Part shown: one piece after another, positions 11,119 through 24,974 of the stretch
Layout: every line of letters starts with the position of its first letter
How positions within the stretch are numbered: the first letter of the stretch is position 1
NCBI GenBank assembly: GCA_947624415.1
Contig: CANQKH010000011.1
Location: 1 to 50,520, forward strand
Origin: an uncultured Clostridia bacterium
Lineage (GTDB): Bacteria; Bacillota; Clostridia; Christensenellales; UBA1242
DNA: 50,520 nt
Direction of reading: 5' to 3'
Notes under the pieces: generated by a model
The model's database searches: none
What the model saw: the letters and a program-made list of their open reading frames with translations, nothing else
What the model was told of the DNA's origin: nothing
Translations under genes and position numbers: made by a program

Positions 11119-12162
11119 ATGACTTATTCATCGCTTTTAAATTTTGGAACGGCGAGTATAGTATTAGTGTCTGTTTTCGGTGCAATTTTGCTTGCGGCAA
11201 TAATATATTTGTGCTTAGTTCCATTAAAAAGTTATTTTACAGCACTTTTTTCGGGAATGTATATTCCATCTTTTAGATTAATCAGCATAAAGAACAGAAA
11301 ATTGAATGTTGCTGAGGTTGTTAATGCTTATATTATGGCAAAAAAATCTGGTCTCAACATTTCTCTGCACGATATTGAAAACTTAATGCTTTCAGGTGGA
11401 AGTGCAATTGAGACAATAAAAGCAATCAATTTGGCAAACAGTTCTAATTTTAAATTAGATTATCAACTTGCCAGTGGTATTGAACTTGCCTCACACAATA
11501 TTTTGCAGGTGGTTCAGGATAGTATAAATTCACAAGTTATAATTGTTGACGATGCAAATGCCTTTACCCAAGATGAAATTGAAATTAAGGCAAAAGCGAG
11601 AGTGTCAATAAAGGTAAAACTTGATAAATATTTGACTGGCCTTGGTCTTGATGATTTAAAGGGGACAATAAGTGCATGGATAATGGAAAATATTGCAAAA
11701 ACGAAAAACTACAAGGATATTTTAAAAGAACCAAACAAATGCTTATTATCCAATTTGGATTTGAGAGTAGTAACTCAAAAATCAATATATAACGTTGTTG
11801 ATATAAATATAGCAAGCCTTGAAATAGGAAGAGATTTAAATCAAGAAAGAGAGATTAAGTCTGCAGAGAAAGAAAAAGTTTTTGCTCAAATAGAGGCTGA
11901 AAGAAGAAAGAATGCCGAAGAGATAAGAGAGTTAAAGATGAGAACAAAAACTGAGGAAATGAAGTCTGCTGTTCTCGAAGCGGAGGCAGATGTTCCAAGA
12001 GCAATTTCGCAGGCTATAAAAGAAGGACGTTTCTCTGTTATGGATTATTATAAACTTATGAATCTTCAGGCAGATACAGCAATGAGAAGGGCAATAATAA
12101 ACGATAATAATTCAAATCGTCCTGGTGGCGACGATTCTGATGATGAAGGAGATTTCTTCTAA
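11119..12162 (+). CDS. floA: Flotillin-like protein FloA
   Basis: FloA is a scaffold of membrane microdomains in Bacillus-type bacteria. At 347 residues it has the family length. One N-terminal hairpin-type membrane segment (about 13-36, ASIVLVSVFGAILLAAIIYLCL) is followed by the SPFH/flotillin domain and then a charged coiled coil (about 245-300, EREIKSAEKEKVFAQIEAER) with the Glu-Ala-rich stretch EAEADVPRAISQAI. The C-terminus is acidic and disordered (DDSDDEGDFF). In B. subtilis floA (yqfA) follows an NfeD-type gene and precedes yqfB-yqfC-yqfD; here an unrelated-looking membrane protein takes the place between floA and yqfC. TAATG couples it to that next gene. Confidence 0.95.
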   Translation: MTYSSLLNFGTASIVLVSVFGAILLAAIIYLCLVPLKSYFTALFSGMYIPSFRLISIKNRKLNVAEVVNAYIMAKKSGLNISLHDIENLMLSGGSAIETIKAINLANSSNFKLDYQLASGIELASHNILQVVQDSINSQVIIVDDANAFTQDEIEIKAKARVSIKVKLDKYLTGLGLDDLKGTISAWIMENIAKTKNYKDILKEPNKCLLSNLDLRVVTQKSIYNVVDINIASLEIGRDLNQEREIKSAEKEKVFAQIEAERRKNAEEIRELKMRTKTEEMKSAVLEAEADVPRAISQAIKEGRFSVMDYYKLMNLQADTAMRRAIINDNNSNRPGGDDSDDEGDFF

Positions 12163-18012: not shown

Positions 18013-18268
18013 GTAGAAAACACAATATGTAGTGATATGCAGTGCAGTTTAGCCACAACATACAGAGAAAATAAGTTTTAGCATATTTTTGCAAGAATAA
18101 AATATGTCTTCTTTTCTATTTCAAAAATTTTGATTTTTCTTTGATTAAAGGCAAAATTTGATTTTTTAGACGAAAAAGGGCAATCGCAAAATACTTTTGC
18201 GAAAATCAAAATAATAATCAAAAGAAATCAAATAAATCAAAATTTACAAATATTTTATTAGACATGGT
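18013..18268. other. Non-coding region with ATCAAA/TTTGAT array and hairpin
   Basis: This stretch has no gene that I can support. It holds a perfect 8-bp hairpin, TCGCAAAA-TAC-TTTTGCGA (18184-18202). It also holds seven copies of TTTGAT or its complement, at 18129, 18140, 18157, 18205, 18217, 18227 and 18236; an eighth at 18268 overlaps the -35 of the next operon. The four reverse copies are spaced 9-12 bases, close to one helical turn. Confidence 0.7.
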
Positions 18269-18298
18269 TTGATTTTGTCGCAGGTTGTGTGTTATAAT
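18269..18298 (+). promoter_or_regulatory. Promoter of the FtsZ-like operon
   Basis: TTGATT (18269-18274), 18-base spacer, extended -10 TGT-TATAAT (18293-18298). The -35 is part of the last TTTGAT motif of the array. Confidence 0.72.
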
Positions 18299-18316
18299 AT
18301 TAGTAGAGAGGTCGTT

Positions 18317-18598
18317 ATGCAGAAGCACAAAAAGTTGATCATCTTATATGTCTATGACGCTTTGAGATATGGAAGTCAAAACTGCCTTTTGCATCAAACA
18401 AAATTGGCGGAGCAAATAACCAAATATTGCGGCATACCTTGTGATAGAAAAACAATTGCACGCAACATTGATTACCTTCGGCAGTATGGTTGCGATATAG
18501 TTACAATCAAAGGAAAAGGTTGTTACATGAAGTCATATCCACGCTTTGGAGAAACAATAATGAATAATGTTGGGGAGAGAAGAGATGCGACCAATTGA
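18317..18598 (+). CDS. Small winged-helix (WYL-associated type) DNA-binding protein
   Basis: A 93-residue protein consisting of little more than a winged helix: KKLIILYVYDALRYGSQNCL, LHQTKLAEQITKYCGIPCDRKTIARNIDYLRQYGCDIVTIKGKGCYM. The pattern 'RKTIxRxIxxLxxxGxDI' is the recognition region seen at the N-terminus of WYL-domain regulators, but the WYL sensor domain is absent. It could be an autonomous repressor of its own operon, perhaps through the ATCAAA array upstream. The start at 18317 follows GAGAGG; an in-frame ATG/other start at 18269 lies within the promoter. It overlaps the next gene by 14 bases. Confidence 0.82.
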   Translation: MQKHKKLIILYVYDALRYGSQNCLLHQTKLAEQITKYCGIPCDRKTIARNIDYLRQYGCDIVTIKGKGCYMKSYPRFGETIMNNVGERRDATN

Positions 18599-18887
18599 AC
18601 CATTTGTGATGCCACTGTATAAGTGCAAGAATTGTGGAAAAGTTATTTCCGAACCTCAACTGCAATCCTTCAATATTTCATATAACGATTTATATTGTCG
18701 TGGAAGATGGTGCTTATGTGAAGAATGCATAGAAAAGGGTATAACAAGACCAAAAAGTGCTAGTTTTTCTAAAAAGGTTTTGGGTGAGAACGCGGTGGCA
18801 TTTTTGAGTGAATTGATAGAAATAATATCACGCTATAGGGTGGAATTAGGAGATGTATTTTATGGAGAAGATTATAACGGAGAATAA
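18585..18887 (+). CDS. Small zinc-ribbon protein of unknown function
   Basis: A 100-residue protein. C14-x2-C17 (YKCKNCGK) and C45-x2-C48 (CLCEECIEKG), with further Cys at 38 and 43, form a probable zinc site in the N-terminal half. The C-terminal half is a helix-rich acidic segment (VLGENAVAFLSELIEIISRYRVELGDV). I know no named family. GGGGAGAG precedes the ATG at 18585. It overlaps the wHTH gene upstream and the FtsZ-like gene downstream by 26 bases, so the three are almost certainly translated from one mRNA. Confidence 0.82.
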   Translation: MRPIEPFVMPLYKCKNCGKVISEPQLQSFNISYNDLYCRGRWCLCEECIEKGITRPKSASFSKKVLGENAVAFLSELIEIISRYRVELGDVFYGEDYNGE

Positions 18888-19542
18888 ACTTTCTATTAAG
18901 ATGATTGGTGTGGGCGATGCTGGAATTGAAGTTATTAAAGATTTTGGTAAAAGACATCTGCCCAACGTGGAGTGCCTTGATATGAACACCGAGTGGGCTG
19001 TTAAAACTGCCAACAAGTTTGTTAAAATTGGCGTAAATTTTACAAAGGGATTAGGTGCAGGTGCTCTTGTTGAAGTTGGCAGGCAAGCGGCAGAAGAAGA
19101 TAGGAAAGCCATTATTGAGGCAATAAAAGGTTGCAATCTTTTGATTGCTGTTGCAGGTCTTGGCGGAGGGACAGGCTCTGGAGCAACACCTGTGGTTGTT
19201 GAGACGGCAAAAGAACTAAAAATTCCTACAATTGTTTTTGTAACAATTCCACTTGAACTGGAGGGGAAATTTAGAAATAATAATGCTCAAAATGGTTTAG
19301 AGAAATTAAAAAGCATTGCAGATATTTTGTTTGTATTGTCAAACGAAAGATTTTTATCGGCAAATTTAGATTGGAGAGGAAGTTTTGTTGAATTTTATAA
19401 AGGAACTGACAATATTTTGCAAAGTAATATTTTGAAAGTTATTGACTTGTTTAATTCAAAAGCACAAGAAAATTCAATAAAAGACATTTTCAAATATGTC
19501 GAATTTGATAAATCTTCCTATATTGATATGTTTAAAAATTGA
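18862..19542 (+). CDS. Short FtsZ-like GTPase-domain protein
   Basis: The 226 residues align with the N-terminal GTP-binding half of FtsZ. They include SIKMIGVGDAGIEVI, LDMNTEW, TKGLGAGALVEVGRQAAEED, the tubulin signature GGGTGSGATP (101-110), and a strand-turn like the FtsZ VTxPxxxEG region (VTIPLELEGKFR). The T7 loop, which in FtsZ reads NxDFAD and activates the neighbour's GTPase, is not conserved (ENSIKDIFKYVE at about 203-214). The roughly 120-residue C-terminal domain and the SepF/FtsA-binding tail are absent. The ATG at 18862 follows AGGAGA eight bases upstream. The next gene starts 81 bases after the stop, so no missing domain is hidden there. Function unknown: a filament-capping or regulating partner of FtsZ is one possibility. 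Confidence 0.85.
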   Translation: MEKIITENKLSIKMIGVGDAGIEVIKDFGKRHLPNVECLDMNTEWAVKTANKFVKIGVNFTKGLGAGALVEVGRQAAEEDRKAIIEAIKGCNLLIAVAGLGGGTGSGATPVVVETAKELKIPTIVFVTIPLELEGKFRNNNAQNGLEKLKSIADILFVLSNERFLSANLDWRGSFVEFYKGTDNILQSNILKVIDLFNSKAQENSIKDIFKYVEFDKSSYIDMFKN

Positions 19543-19623: not shown

Positions 19624-20496
19624 ATGAAAAATTATAAGATTTATTGCTTTGCCGATAAAGAAACATTTGGGAATAAATTGGATTTTGAACCTAACGTTGT
19701 TTTTCTAAAAGACGAGTATGATTTATTAGACAATAATGAAAATAAAATTATAGTTTACGACCCCGATTATTCAGGTTGGTGCTTTCCCAATGAAGTTTTA
19801 AAATTTAAAAATATAAAGGGTATATGTTTAGGCACGACAACGGCTAGTTATATTGATGAAGACTTGTGCAAGAAAAAGAATATTCCAATTTTAAATATTC
19901 CAAAATATTCAACGGACAGCGTAGCAGAATATATGGTTATGCTAATGTTTGCATTAGCAAAAAAACTTCCTTTGCAAATAAAGTCCAATTTCAAGCAGGA
20001 TTTTAACGAAAATTTCACACAGATGCAACTTAAAGGCAAACAAGTTGGCGTTGTTGGTCTTGGGAACATTGGTTTAAGATTTGCAAGCATTTGTGAAGGA
20101 ATTGGCATGAGTGTAAGTTATTGGGACAGAAAGAAAAAGGATGTTGAGTTTACATATAAGGGGCTAAAATCATTGTTTGAAGAGTCAGATGTTTTGTTTG
20201 TTGCCTTGACGACAAATAAAGAGACGATTGAGATTGTAACCGATGATATGTTGCGTTCATTAAAAAACACTGCCATTTTGCTAAGTGTAGGTGGCGCAAA
20301 TTTGTTTAATCATAATTTAGTAGTAGAAATGATGAAAAACAACAAATTGTTTGGCTATGGATTAGAGATTGAAAATAAGGGTGTTTTTGATTTTGAGGGG
20401 AACACCATGGTTACAAGCGAGTATGCATGGTTTACAAAAGAGTCGCAAGAAGCAAGGATTAAATTGTGGGTGGAAAACATTAAATCCCTTTTATAA
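19624..20496 (+). CDS. D-2-hydroxyacid dehydrogenase fold protein lacking catalytic Arg and His
   Basis: A 290-residue protein of the D-isomer 2-hydroxyacid dehydrogenase family by fold. It has an N-terminal substrate domain, the AEYMVMLMFALAKK helix, and the NAD site VGVVGLGNIGLRFA (G145-x-G147-x2-G150). In active members, 'NTARG' supplies the catalytic Arg and 'TPH' the catalytic His. Here the aligned positions read LLSVGGANL (Arg replaced by G223) and VTSEYAWFT (His replaced by E266), while a glutamate at about 248-250 remains. This suggests an NAD-binding pseudoenzyme or an altered reaction. GGAGGAG precedes the ATG. A terminator follows, so it is a single-gene transcript next to the FtsZ-like operon. 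Confidence 0.88.
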   Translation: MKNYKIYCFADKETFGNKLDFEPNVVFLKDEYDLLDNNENKIIVYDPDYSGWCFPNEVLKFKNIKGICLGTTTASYIDEDLCKKKNIPILNIPKYSTDSVAEYMVMLMFALAKKLPLQIKSNFKQDFNENFTQMQLKGKQVGVVGLGNIGLRFASICEGIGMSVSYWDRKKKDVEFTYKGLKSLFEESDVLFVALTTNKETIEIVTDDMLRSLKNTAILLSVGGANLFNHNLVVEMMKNNKLFGYGLEIENKGVFDFEGNTMVTSEYAWFTKESQEARIKLWVENIKSLL

Positions 20497-20954: not shown

Positions 20955-23900
20955 ATGAAAAAGATTATAAAATCAGGTATTTTTAAAACTTTTGTAATTA
21001 TAACCTGCCTTTTTATGAGCCTATCTTCATTAATGATTGGCTTAAACTTTTGTGGAATCATATATATGGAATCTGGCGACGCGTTCAATAGCAGTGATAG
21101 TTATACTACAATTGGCGAGATTTGGGATTCTTCCCATTCAAAGTTTATCAAAGGCACCCTTGATTCATTGCTCCAAGCAATAAGTGGAAGACAGGCGACC
21201 TCTTCCAATATGAAAAAATTAGAGGATATGACACCAGATTTTTTTGAAAATGGTTTGACATCCTCGACACTAAAGACTAATAATTCAAATAGAGAAATAG
21301 TTGTAACAATAGGAGGCCTAAAATGGACTCCAACATATCTTTCCAGAGATATGGATGATAATATTATTTTGACTCTTTGGCTCACCGATTCTAAACAAAT
21401 TGGCAATGAACTATTTGCACCTGGAAAAACATTTGATAGTCTCGGTCGTGCGACATGGAATTCTGGATATACTCCTAGCGGTGATACTTCAACTGCTCCC
21501 TATCCAGAAGATATGTATGGAACGTCATACATGAGAAGCGTGGTGTTAAATAATGGAGGATATTATAAGACATATACTCGGGATACCTCTCTGACATTGG
21601 CAACAAAATATGCATTGAGTGTTTTTGAAACGTTTACAATGGGCTCTTTTAGAAAGTATATTGTTACACCATATAATGTATCGTGGCAATACGAAGAATG
21701 TGCAAAAGATATATTCCATTGCACCTATAATTTGCCAAATGAGAGTTTGTCAACATTAAACACTGGATTTGAAAGAGGTCATGACTATACGGGTATAGAG
21801 CATTATACTGACTGGGGAGATGATTTTTTATGGCTTCCATCTTATACTGAAATAGGAGACGGAAATATTAATGGCATTTGGGGAACCTCGGTTGAACAAA
21901 GACGAAATTATGACGATACAGGGCTTCGCTCAGGATATGATTATGAAGCGGCTACTTTAATGACTTCAAATGGTTTTTATGTAGACGCTCTTTATGTTGA
22001 AAGCGTTTATGGTGTTCGCCCTGCATTTCACCTGAATTTATCCCTTGCGGCAGCATCTGCATTGACAATAAATGAATTATGGGATAGTTCTTCATCAGAA
22101 TTTGATTTAAATAATGTTAATACTTTATTGAGGACAATAAGTGGAAATAGCAGTGCTTCGATAACCAATACAGCTCCAGTTGACGATTTGGCAAACAAGA
22201 AAACTACAGCGGCTGATATTAATAAGGAAACAAAGATTTTAGTAACCATTGGCGGTTTAAACTGGACACCAACATTTCTTTCTAAAGATAAAAACAAGAA
22301 TACAATTTTAACATTGTGGCTTGATAACCCATCTCAATTATATGGTCTATATGGTAATAGTCCTTACTTTATTTTTAGTGGAGGGTTAGCACCATGGTCT
22401 CAGTATCCGGGCACATCAACACTTGTCAATTATCCGGCGAATATGTATGGGACTTCGTTTATGCGATCTGTTGTCCTAAATAATGGGGGACAATATGCAA
22501 CTAGCGACACTACCACTATAAGTTATGCACAATTTTCAGATTCTGTTTTTGCTCCATTTACAATGGGTGATTTAACAAAATATATAGTTACACCACAAGA
22601 TGTATCATGGCAGGAAAGCGATCAATCTGCAAAAACGTACTGGGGTGAAACATATAATTATCCAAATGAGGATTTGACAACGTCGACAGATTTTTGTCTA
22701 TTTAACACGTTTGGACGCCCACCGCAGACGGTGGCAGACTTAAATTATACAAGCAAAACTGGTTATACGGCTTGGGGCAAAGACTATTTATGGCTTCCGT
22801 CTGCATTCGAGATAGGCCGACTGAATGATGATACACAAGCCGGGTTATGGCAAGTTACATTTATGCAACGGCACCAAATAAATGAATCATGGCTTCGTTC
22901 TGGTGGCGAAGGCGGCATGGAAAATGCACAATGCAATATTTCATTGCTTATGGGGACAGGCACATACATTATGACAAAACAACTAGCGACCACCACGACA
23001 CTATATAACTATTCTGTTCGTCCTGCATTTCACTTAAATTTAACTGCTGTTTGTGAATCATTAAATACTTATAATATTACATTTTCCGGCAATGGTGGAA
23101 AAGTAAATGGTCGAACAAGCATAAATCATAGTGGATATGGCTATCACAAGAACGAGGATTTGACAGTTTATGCTGACCAGGACAGCATTCAAGACAGTGC
23201 AACTACACTATATTTATATAGGGCAGGATATAAATTTTTAGGGTTTACCACAAATTCATCTTCACCTTCAACTACAAATAAATTGTATGAAGTTAAAGAT
23301 GGGAAGTTTACAATTCCAAATTTGGGCAATGGTGGAACATTAACCTTATATGCTCAGTGGGAGGCACGTTCCTATAGCATTACATTTGACTCTGGGGGCA
23401 AAACATTGACAGAAGGGACGTTGCCAAGTTCAGTAACGTTAAATTATGACGATACTGGCACGACAAAATATACAATTCCACCAGCGAAGTCAAATATACC
23501 AAAAACACAAGGTTATGAATTTTCTGGTTGGAAAAATGAATCAAATAAGAAAATATACCAGCCCGAGCAACAAGTGGCAATAAAAGATTTATTCAATATT
23601 TCAACTCAGTCGGGAGTATATAATATTTCAAACATAACATTAACTGCAGAATGGACACCAATTACATATAAAGTTAAATTTGACCTAAATACAATTGATA
23701 TTAGAAATGAAAAACTTTTCACAACTCCAACAGGTTCGCCAAGCATAACCGACATGTCTTCTTCAAATTTAACTCCTTCAAATGGAATTTATACATTAAC
23801 TTATGACCAACTGTATTTAGTAGAAAATAATTTTGTATGTAATGGCTACCATCTCTTAGGATTTAGAACAAATGCAGGTGCAACGGTAACATTATATGGT

Positions 23901-24974
23901 TTTTGGAGTAACTTATCCAATTTAACAGATGAAAAGGACCAAGAAATTACTCTTTACGCGCAGTGGGAGCCTACATGGTCAAAGTTTGCTCATAAGGAGT
24001 CGGCAAAGCCAGTGCAACAGGGTGCAACCTATTTAATACAAAGCGCTGAGAATTTAGGATGGCTAATGGGGACAATATCTTTTGGAAGCGCAGAACTCAA
24101 AAATAGTATTAACAGCACAATGTATACATTTAAACAAACAAGGAACATATATTTAACCGATTATCCATGGAACCCAGACGGAATATTTTCTTCTAGGTAT
24201 GACGGAAATGGTTGTTATATATATGACTTGCACAACGAGACAGAGGAAAATAAAGGTATAATTTCTAAAGATTACCAGGGACTATTTGCTCAAACCAGCG
24301 GTGCTAGTCTTCAAAAAATAACAATAATGTCAGGGAACATATTTGGAGCAAATTATGTGGGTTCGATTGTGGGATATGCAACAAATACGTTAATAAAAAA
24401 TTGTATAAATTATGCAAGTGTATCAGGGGATGCTTGTGTTGGAGGTATAGTTGGATACAAAACCGATGACTTATCAAACGCATCCGCAACTATTTCAAGT
24501 TGTATAAATTATGGTAAAGTTATCTGTACCAGTCCTGGCGAACTTTTCAGTAGCAAGGACACAGGCGGAATTGTAGGTCATATAGAAAATGGTATAATAA
24601 AAAGCTGTTATGTTAAGGCGACTATAACAAGTATATATGATATTATTTTGGGAAGCGTTTATTTTGGTGGTATAGCAGGAAATGCCACAAATACAACAAT
24701 TGAGCAATGTGCTTATATTGGGACTATAAAACAGACAGGATATAGTAACGGAATTTGTGCAACGGGAGACGGAGAGGTTAAAGATTGCCTTGTAAGGACA
24801 TCCACTTCCGGACTTGATTTATTCCCTGATTATGAAAATAATTATATTTATTCAACAAATTGTATTGGTTATGTAAATAACGGTTCGCCACAAACAACGG
24901 CAGAAATGGACTATACAAATTGGACGACTATAAATGGTCAATGGTTTCCTAAGGGGCTTACTTGGCTTGCATAA
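20955..24974 (+). CDS. Large repeat-built surface protein (DUF6273-like x2, InlB-type x3, GLUG x3-4)
   Basis: A 1339-residue protein after AAGGAGGGG. The N-terminus has a signal or signal-anchor segment (about 9-36) without a clear A-x-A site. Residues about 52-370 and 370-700 are two copies of one unit, each running from IxELWDSS through VTIGGLxWTPT, MYGTSxMRSVVLNNGG, KYIVTPxxVSWQ and LWLPS to VRPAFHLNL, a DUF6273-like module. About 700-1004 holds three InlB/Listeria-Bacteroides-type repeats (TLTLYAQWEA, TLTAEWTP, ITLYAQWEP). About 1130-1265 holds GLUG-type repeats (GSIVGYATNTLIKNC, GGIVGYKTDD, GGIVGHIENGIIKSC, GGIAGNATNTTIEQC). There is no LPXTG, SLH or C-terminal helix, so it may be held by its N-terminal helix or secreted. 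An adhesin or matrix role is likely by architecture only. Confidence 0.9.
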   Translation: MKKIIKSGIFKTFVIITCLFMSLSSLMIGLNFCGIIYMESGDAFNSSDSYTTIGEIWDSSHSKFIKGTLDSLLQAISGRQATSSNMKKLEDMTPDFFENGLTSSTLKTNNSNREIVVTIGGLKWTPTYLSRDMDDNIILTLWLTDSKQIGNELFAPGKTFDSLGRATWNSGYTPSGDTSTAPYPEDMYGTSYMRSVVLNNGGYYKTYTRDTSLTLATKYALSVFETFTMGSFRKYIVTPYNVSWQYEECAKDIFHCTYNLPNESLSTLNTGFERGHDYTGIEHYTDWGDDFLWLPSYTEIGDGNINGIWGTSVEQRRNYDDTGLRSGYDYEAATLMTSNGFYVDALYVESVYGVRPAFHLNLSLAAASALTINELWDSSSSEFDLNNVNTLLRTISGNSSASITNTAPVDDLANKKTTAADINKETKILVTIGGLNWTPTFLSKDKNKNTILTLWLDNPSQLYGLYGNSPYFIFSGGLAPWSQYPGTSTLVNYPANMYGTSFMRSVVLNNGGQYATSDTTTISYAQFSDSVFAPFTMGDLTKYIVTPQDVSWQESDQSAKTYWGETYNYPNEDLTTSTDFCLFNTFGRPPQTVADLNYTSKTGYTAWGKDYLWLPSAFEIGRLNDDTQAGLWQVTFMQRHQINESWLRSGGEGGMENAQCNISLLMGTGTYIMTKQLATTTTLYNYSVRPAFHLNLTAVCESLNTYNITFSGNGGKVNGRTSINHSGYGYHKNEDLTVYADQDSIQDSATTLYLYRAGYKFLGFTTNSSSPSTTNKLYEVKDGKFTIPNLGNGGTLTLYAQWEARSYSITFDSGGKTLTEGTLPSSVTLNYDDTGTTKYTIPPAKSNIPKTQGYEFSGWKNESNKKIYQPEQQVAIKDLFNISTQSGVYNISNITLTAEWTPITYKVKFDLNTIDIRNEKLFTTPTGSPSITDMSSSNLTPSNGIYTLTYDQLYLVENNFVCNGYHLLGFRTNAGATVTLYGFWSNLSNLTDEKDQEITLYAQWEPTWSKFAHKESAKPVQQGATYLIQSAENLGWLMGTISFGSAELKNSINSTMYTFKQTRNIYLTDYPWNPDGIFSSRYDGNGCYIYDLHNETEENKGIISKDYQGLFAQTSGASLQKITIMSGNIFGANYVGSIVGYATNTLIKNCINYASVSGDACVGGIVGYKTDDLSNASATISSCINYGKVICTSPGELFSSKDTGGIVGHIENGIIKSCYVKATITSIYDIILGSVYFGGIAGNATNTTIEQCAYIGTIKQTGYSNGICATGDGEVKDCLVRTSTSGLDLFPDYENNYIYSTNCIGYVNNGSPQTTAEMDYTNWTTINGQWFPKGLTWLA

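Follow-up and report, generated by a model that had tools for sequence, protein, structure and literature searches.

What is half of FtsZ doing in a three-gene operon of an uncultured Clostridia bacterium? The window, meaning the whole stretch of 50,520 nucleotides analysed here (contig CANQKH010000011.1), encodes on its forward strand a winged helix-turn-helix (wHTH) protein (18317..18598, 93 amino acids by open reading frame (ORF) call), a zinc ribbon protein (18585..18887, 100 amino acids, with an alternative ATG at 18567) and a shortened FtsZ, hereafter mini-FtsZ (18853..19542, 229 amino acids, or 226 from the ATG at 18862, which has better AGGAG spacing than that at 18853). Each gene overlaps its neighbour, head to tail, an arrangement that an earlier note on this DNA had described and that we find exactly where it was placed. 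The answer we favour, while judging it somewhat likelier to be wrong than right, is that the operon is an accessory mobile unit, perhaps directed against phages, in which mini-FtsZ would cap host FtsZ one-sidedly, pausing division while a DNA enzyme acts. Comparison of related sequences supports the architecture of the operon, its mobility, purifying selection on mini-FtsZ, the loss of its T7 aspartate and the conservation of its nucleotide loops.

Mini-FtsZ retains the nucleotide-binding domain of FtsZ, with its GLGxGA, GGGTGSG and FEG..R-type motifs and helix H7. The window protein matches the Pfam Tubulin family (PF00091) at 110.7 bits (cut-off 33) and a solved FtsZ at 123.7 bits, while the FtsZ profile TIGR00065 scores 163.5 bits, under its cut-off of 295.2, and aligns over positions 9-213 of 353; a Pfam scan of the protein found no FtsZ C-terminal domain family. 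The loss of that domain had been claimed in the earlier note, as had the retention of the GTP-binding motifs GLGAGA and GGGTGSG, and both claims hold, the latter motif agreeing with the canonical FtsZ signature GGGTGSG/T. In the AlphaFold2 model (pLDDT 90.2, pTM 0.89), the chain passes through helix H7, then forms a short helix where T7 and the start of H8 (T7/H8) would lie, and finishes with a strand. The C-terminal tail is folded as a strand in this model, and we do not claim it as an FtsZ tail peptide.

The note had also held that the T7 loop was lost, which proves half right. Segment names (T1-T7) and residue roles are those of the FtsZ literature. In an alignment of nine distinct mini-FtsZs with 24 congeneric FtsZs (26 loci taken, with L022 and L028 filtered out), the catalytic T7 pattern NxDxxD is absent from mini-FtsZ: the first aspartate of NLDFAD is replaced by serine (six) or threonine (two) in eight of the nine sequences, the ninth (L064) stops short of that position, and the second aspartate position holds D, E, N or K. 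The chemistry of the loop is gone, but its position is retained, and since the chain runs through that position into the short helix, T7 is, on alignment and model, disarmed rather than deleted. Mini-FtsZ further differs from FtsZ in having mostly lost the T6 asparagine, and in being mobile, accessory and usually encoded beside a probable DNA enzyme. Its identity to congeneric FtsZ is 35-42%. Mean top-residue frequency among mini-FtsZs is highest in T4 (0.96) and reaches 0.68-0.76 in T1, T2, T3 and T5; other segments lie at 0.44-0.63, except H4 (0.81), and the least conserved include T6/S6-H6 (0.47), the T7 region (0.51) and the tail (0.44). This centring of conservation on the nucleotide loops supports the reading that we favour.

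A short FtsZ could in principle be debris, either a pseudogene or a fragment of a broken ftsZ. The C-terminus is shortened, one of the 20 copies (L258, the same sequence as L064) shows in-frame stops on read-through, and the genus does contain a broken ftsZ, as L028 (genome G007) carries the canonical gene in two overlapping frames, perhaps through an assembly error. Set against this, both length and operon are conserved. A profile of 13 mini-FtsZs (E ≤ 1e-60) retrieved 20 proteins from 19 of the 309 family genomes, spread over 9 of 42 genera, and the ORF finder placed all 20 in short frames of 201-245 amino acids. Three other carriers in a sample of 41 genomes (G004, G011 and G023), congeners all, each have a separate full-length FtsZ frame of 387-403 amino acids. 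Furthermore, dN/dS, the ratio of non-synonymous to synonymous change, is below one in five informative pairs (L064-L078, 0.28; L065-L067, 0.37; L068-L080, 0.35; L068-L078, 0.35; the window and L066, 0.21), which supports purifying selection on mini-FtsZ, although the L064-L078 value may mix selection with decay, given the stops in L064. Two further pairs were uninformative: L068 and L073 are near-identical, with a dN/dS of 1.05 from few changes, and L075 and L077 have zero synonymous changes. The earlier note had named a split ftsZ or a decaying operon as what would undo its proposal; no split gene was found here, and decay is not general. Separate FtsZ frames, dN/dS, short frames and the conserved operon led us to reject a split or decaying ftsZ as a general reading, and that mini-FtsZ is a mere remnant is scarcely credible. 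The window's own draft genome (G000, 1.45 Mb, 90.4% complete) yielded no canonical ftsZ; as two of 40 congeners likewise show no match, an assembly gap is the likely cause.

The genes that travel with mini-FtsZ suggest what it serves. The note had proposed looking for the three-gene order in other Clostridia; within the family, a wHTH relative stands beside 19 of the 20 mini-FtsZ genes. A wHTH profile (E ≤ 1e-20) also found 19 of the 309 family genomes, 18 of them common to the mini-FtsZ set, with G038 carrying wHTH without mini-FtsZ and G011 the reverse; outside the family, no match exceeded 66 bits among 395 genomes drawn from the order. The protein has weak matches to HTH_11, the BirA HTH and a WYL regulator model, and is presumed to be an autoregulator. 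Between wHTH and mini-FtsZ, the operon varies. A gene resembling uracil-DNA glycosylase (UDG) accompanies 12 of the 20 mini-FtsZs, a zinc ribbon with a GIY-YIG-like gene accompanies seven, and only the window has the zinc ribbon alone; one or other enzyme gene is thus present at 19 of the 20. The UDG-like protein of L068, the one sequence compared with PF03167, falls just under the 24.3 cut-off (23.7 bits, E 5.4e-5). In six GIY-YIG-like sequences G.Y and YIG are invariant, but the position expected for the catalytic glutamate holds D, A or E, and with this expected position not conserved the activity is graded putative; the family's Pfam model matches L075 (E 0.0083) and not L004. The zinc ribbon has invariant cysteines at C14, C17, C43, C45 and C48 (six sequences), and in L075 and L077 it shares one 261-amino-acid frame with the GIY-YIG-like part. 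A sequence search of the PDB with the UDG-like, GIY-YIG-like and wHTH proteins returned nothing at E ≤ 0.1, the best relative of the GIY-YIG-like protein being no better than E 0.72. On these similarities the UDG-like and GIY-YIG-like proteins are probable DNA-acting enzymes. Unlike the other seven zinc-ribbon versions, the window operon lacks the GIY-YIG-like gene, and as the only copy with the zinc ribbon alone it is best read as a reduced form of a fuller operon. Hence the earlier suggestion that zinc ribbon and wHTH couple the FtsZ-like protein to DNA survives in part, in its link to DNA, but that link would run through a UDG-like or GIY-YIG-like protein as the probable DNA-acting partner, which the window copy lacks.

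Two observations touch these families at other loci. At L040 (G038), the wHTH gene without mini-FtsZ is followed by one for a 175-amino-acid protein with a weak ParG match (E 0.023). About 1 kb 3' of a UDG-type operon, L078:12525-13562 encodes a 345-amino-acid Sel1-repeat protein, the C-terminal part of which is 27% identical to the GIY-YIG-like protein (E 2e-12).

The operon does not stay in one place. The L068 UDG-type unit shares 96.7-98.3% DNA identity with eight other loci over approximately 1.9-2.1 kb, and the genes flanking these near-identical copies differ, as judged by eye from ORFs, with copies in other genera too; this supports mobility of the operon. An association with sporulation, raised in the earlier note, gains no support, because the operon occurs at unrelated chromosomal sites. 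Twelve of the 20 mini-FtsZ loci lie in cassettes of approximately 2.0-2.3 kb, ten of them with both ends and two (L241 and L247) with the right end, their contigs starting shortly before the operon; the other eight, including the window, lie outside. Single end hits in L253, L254, L255 and L260 were discounted, being within coding sequence. The ends of the L068 unit are imperfect inverted repeats around TTTGAAACTAGC. A search of 13 genomes for the 13-mer TTTTGAAACTAGC gave 57 occurrences, spread over 12 of them, compared with zero for the reversed pattern; the window's genome has none, and no cassette ends were found bounding the window copy. There, the empty-site comparison reaches only as far as the contig of the closest relative, which stops shortly after the same tRNA-Thr.

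The cassettes in turn belong to a broad family (L121-L160, L068-L080). Loci fetched by the right end and end motif carry other cargo, including hydrolases, methyltransferases, a transglutaminase-like protein, a HaeIII-type restriction-modification (R-M) system (L142) and GmrSD with a WYL regulator (L155), while type II R-M genes adjoin one sure end in L137. Insertion sites were compared across 34 complete elements (16 of 20 first-fetch loci, 10 of 20 from the second fetch, L075, L077 and six of UDG type), leaving out loci without a clear end pair. The flanks were reverse-complementary over at least six bases, with at least two G/C, in 24 of the 34, compared with 6.8% among 1092 mismatched pairings; an A-run to the left together with a T-run to the right marked 28 of the 34. 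Paired flanks between an A-run and a T-run are the form of an intrinsic terminator, and the cassettes therefore look mostly to sit in intrinsic-terminator hairpins; in the ten elements with fewer than six complementary bases, six of which had none, the terminator form is not shown. A large serine recombinase of 500 amino acids is encoded in L141, a 4.0 kb element that has both ends. Where the recombinase is at least 67% identical to that of L141, 8 of 12 loci had the end motif, against 1 of 18 more distant ones, each scanned over its fetched stretch, some of these being cut by contig ends. Most cassettes are seen without a recombinase gene. The cassette ends would be two attP half-sites, and the terminator palindrome would be attB. 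The multi-targeting recombinase Cp36 likewise prefers a target that is A-rich 5' and T-rich 3' (PMC10083194), which makes it and other multi-targeting large serine recombinases the nearest likeness for the vehicle; unlike theirs, the cassettes here are mostly recombinase-free, and their targets resemble terminator hairpins. This vehicle, whose ends are common to a clade of serine recombinases, has its likeness in integron cassettes, of which it would be a scattered counterpart.

Neither phages nor plasmids appear to be the source. The wHTH protein has no relative in IMG/VR or PLSDB, and a search of viral contigs for FtsZ gave at least two relatives among the matches listed, of 313 and 311 amino acids, both with NLDFAD and the C-terminal half. 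These two were inspected individually, leaving out 19 phage and 107 plasmid records. On these two grounds, the second limited to the matches listed, a phage or plasmid origin was rejected. As a separate matter, the non-coding right end of L068 (11600-11940) is strongly structured (z -9.3 and -11.2, one per strand); its last 301 bases have matches, often weak, in 92 of 112 congeners (E ≤ 0.01), and Rfam returned only matches under gathering scores on the UDG-type element.

A small wHTH gene 5' of a tubulin-family GTPase gene resembles tubRZ and raises the question of whether the operon is instead a type III partition-like module, with the wHTH protein as TubR and mini-FtsZ as TubZ, or whether its three proteins are the mobility machinery of the cassette. 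The region upstream of the wHTH gene bears on the first of these. In the window, a conserved block at 18269..18316 on the forward strand resembles a promoter and operator, reading TTGATT, 18 bases, TATAAT, then AGTAGAGAGG; its promoter function would follow from this form. Upstream of wHTH, a block resembling TTTTGTCCCATG..TGTTATAATAT.. (in the window, TTTTGTCGCAGG..) was found by eye in all ten regions compared, which include the near-identical pairs L065/L067 and L075/L077. The window also has eight TTGATT/AATCAA sites in approximately 200 bp (18120-18320), its peak density against a mean of 0.39 per 200 bp; however, the other nine upstream regions have zero to two each. TubZ has both domains and T7, and polymerises, and TubRZ has conserved upstream centromere repeats. 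By alignment and AlphaFold2 model mini-FtsZ is not such a two-domain protein with T7, and without the T7 aspartate and C-terminal half it would not be expected to build FtsZ-like filaments by itself; nor is there a conserved centromere-like array, the sites being clustered in one of ten upstream regions. The limitation of the array to the window led us to reject a partition system. As for mobility machinery, the ORF lists of other complete cassettes show other genes, meaning those of the operon are not needed for movement. Overall, we regard a partition or mobility function as very improbable.

How, then, would a mobile division brake work? In the full form of the operon, wHTH is followed by a UDG-like protein, or by a zinc ribbon and GIY-YIG-like protein, and then by mini-FtsZ. 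The wHTH protein would repress its own promoter. Once triggered, the enzyme would act on DNA; nucleotide-loaded mini-FtsZ would meanwhile bind, as a dead-end subunit, to the T7 face of host FtsZ, the one that SulA and MciZ occlude, and so halt division. The filament would end there because mini-FtsZ has only the nucleotide face to offer, which in FtsZ pairs with the T7 face of the following subunit. Phage T7 Gp0.4 is similarly predicted to occlude the T7 side of FtsZ, as SulA and MciZ do (PMC13423816). Repression, enzyme activity, capping, the trigger and the defence role are steps that we infer, and capping is our preferred mechanism only tentatively, with the balance tilted a little against it. 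A defence role is suggested by the R-M and GmrSD cargo of other cassettes and by the neighbours of L065, a non-cassette copy with AbiL-like and PDC-M42-like genes upstream; at other copies the neighbours look, by eye, like housekeeping genes. Also in favour of the scheme as a whole are the wHTH genes and the enzyme genes, each found with 19 of the 20 mini-FtsZs, and the lower conservation of mini-FtsZ relative to its partners in several comparisons, with a mosaic in one.

Several observations weigh against this scheme. Firstly, a defence-gene setting of the operon itself is seen at one locus type only, and the operon proteins matched PADLOC models weakly at best, at 14 bits or fewer. Secondly, the window copy has no enzyme gene, and its own target was not seen, the draft showing no canonical ftsZ. 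Thirdly, mini-FtsZ changes fast, which is awkward if its target is a conserved protein like host FtsZ. Fourthly, T6/S6-H6 belongs to the nucleotide site and is nevertheless among the poorly conserved segments (0.47), and the T6 asparagine, which reads guanine in FtsZ, is kept in the window and lost in most copies. Fifthly, the glutamine two after NTD, near-invariant in host FtsZ, is lost in all nine mini-FtsZs, in which an invariant tryptophan directly precedes its position; since these residues near the top face have changed, docking on host FtsZ may not be kept.

Some of the same observations would suit a nucleotide-sensing subunit, unrelated to division, that binds nucleotide and switches the UDG-like or GIY-YIG-like enzyme, just as GTPase subunits switch enzymes in some restriction systems. 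Such a role is consistent with the linkage of an enzyme gene in 19 of 20 cases, with conservation centred on the phosphate loops, with the loss of the T6 asparagine in most copies and with the changed top-face residues. It sits less easily with the closeness of mini-FtsZ to FtsZ (still 35-42% identical to congeneric FtsZ) and with the window copy, which has no adjoining enzyme gene; moreover, as UDG-like and GIY-YIG-like proteins are different families, one switch must serve both. We consider this explanation doubtful, though worth pursuing alongside capping.

The rapid change of mini-FtsZ could alternatively point to a decoy, which would mimic host FtsZ, bind a phage division inhibitor and thereby release or activate the neighbouring DNA enzyme. 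A precedent is CapRel of Enterobacter chengduensis, activated by a complex of phage T7 Gp0.4 and FtsZ (PMC13423816). In several pairs mini-FtsZ is indeed less conserved than its partners: 60% between L068 and L078, against 79% for the UDG-like protein and 78% for wHTH; 57% between L064 and L078, against 88% and 93% for the partners; and 52% between the window and L066, against 70% for wHTH. Rapid and mosaic change might be expected of a protein that senses variable phage products, and L080 shows the latter. Compared in 150-base segments, L080 is at least 0.97 identical to L068 through the segment starting at 11150, then 0.94, 0.81, 0.81, 0.94 and 1.0; its identity to L078 is 0.95 and 0.94 over the middle two of these, where L068 and L078 share 0.75. 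By these identities the L080 mini-FtsZ is a mosaic, with a recombined tract at approximately 11300-11525, roughly residues 145-219. However, the mosaic is one case, and the L065-L067 pair does not show lower conservation, with 96% for mini-FtsZ and 93% for each of its two partners. The decoy is weakened further because Gp0.4 is predicted to bind on the T7/C-terminal side (PMC13423816), which mini-FtsZ lacks, restricting the inhibitors that could be caught to those binding the N-terminal half of FtsZ. Such a decoy seems unlikely.

Returning to capping by mini-FtsZ, known systems offer parts of the picture. SulA, MciZ and phage T7 Gp0.4 have folds other than that of FtsZ. These are small proteins that stop division via the T7 face of FtsZ, as predicted in the case of Gp0.4 (PMC13423816), and unlike mini-FtsZ none is known to be made from FtsZ. 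The CapRel system of Enterobacter chengduensis resembles the proposed one in coupling FtsZ to anti-phage defence (PMC13423816), but reads the host's own FtsZ, and its toxin domain is alarmone-synthetase-like. FtsZl1 and FtsZl2 have an FtsZ-like nucleotide domain, and according to PMC2875224 FtsZl1 also lacks a recognisable FtsZ C-terminal domain and has a divergent S6-T7 region; most FtsZl1 proteins have a coiled coil and a helical C-terminal part, and their gene neighbours encode vWA and kinase proteins. None of these features was found in the AlphaFold2 model or at the 20 mini-FtsZ loci, and mini-FtsZ, in contrast to FtsZl1, is a clear FtsZ relative. Among the matches listed for the terms used in the open-licence PMC literature, no paper described an FtsZ half in a mobile operon, nor serine-recombinase cassettes in terminators. 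It is a reasonable conjecture, just short of an even call, that half of FtsZ was captured, lost its catalytic T7 aspartate and C-terminal domain, and now serves a mobile immune operon with interchangeable DNA enzymes, either as a decoy or as a dead-end subunit, the operon being spread into terminators by serine-recombinase cassettes, and the whole assembly may be a new kind of system. If mini-FtsZ caps FtsZ, it would be a division inhibitor made from the division protein itself, under mobile control, and a natural single-face FtsZ with which to probe filament polarity and capping. Were it a decoy, it would extend the recent discovery that phage sensing can involve FtsZ (PMC13423816). Since two different DNA enzymes replace each other beside a single FtsZ half, it can be tested directly whether division is coupled to the attack or repair of DNA.

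The surroundings of the window operon include two further genes. A D-2-hydroxyacid dehydrogenase gene at 19624-20496 has Pfam families matching those of the cargo in cassette L158. Close by, 20955-24974 encodes a protein of 1339 amino acids with GLUG motifs and a weak match to the Listeria-Bacteroides repeat, which is perhaps a surface protein.

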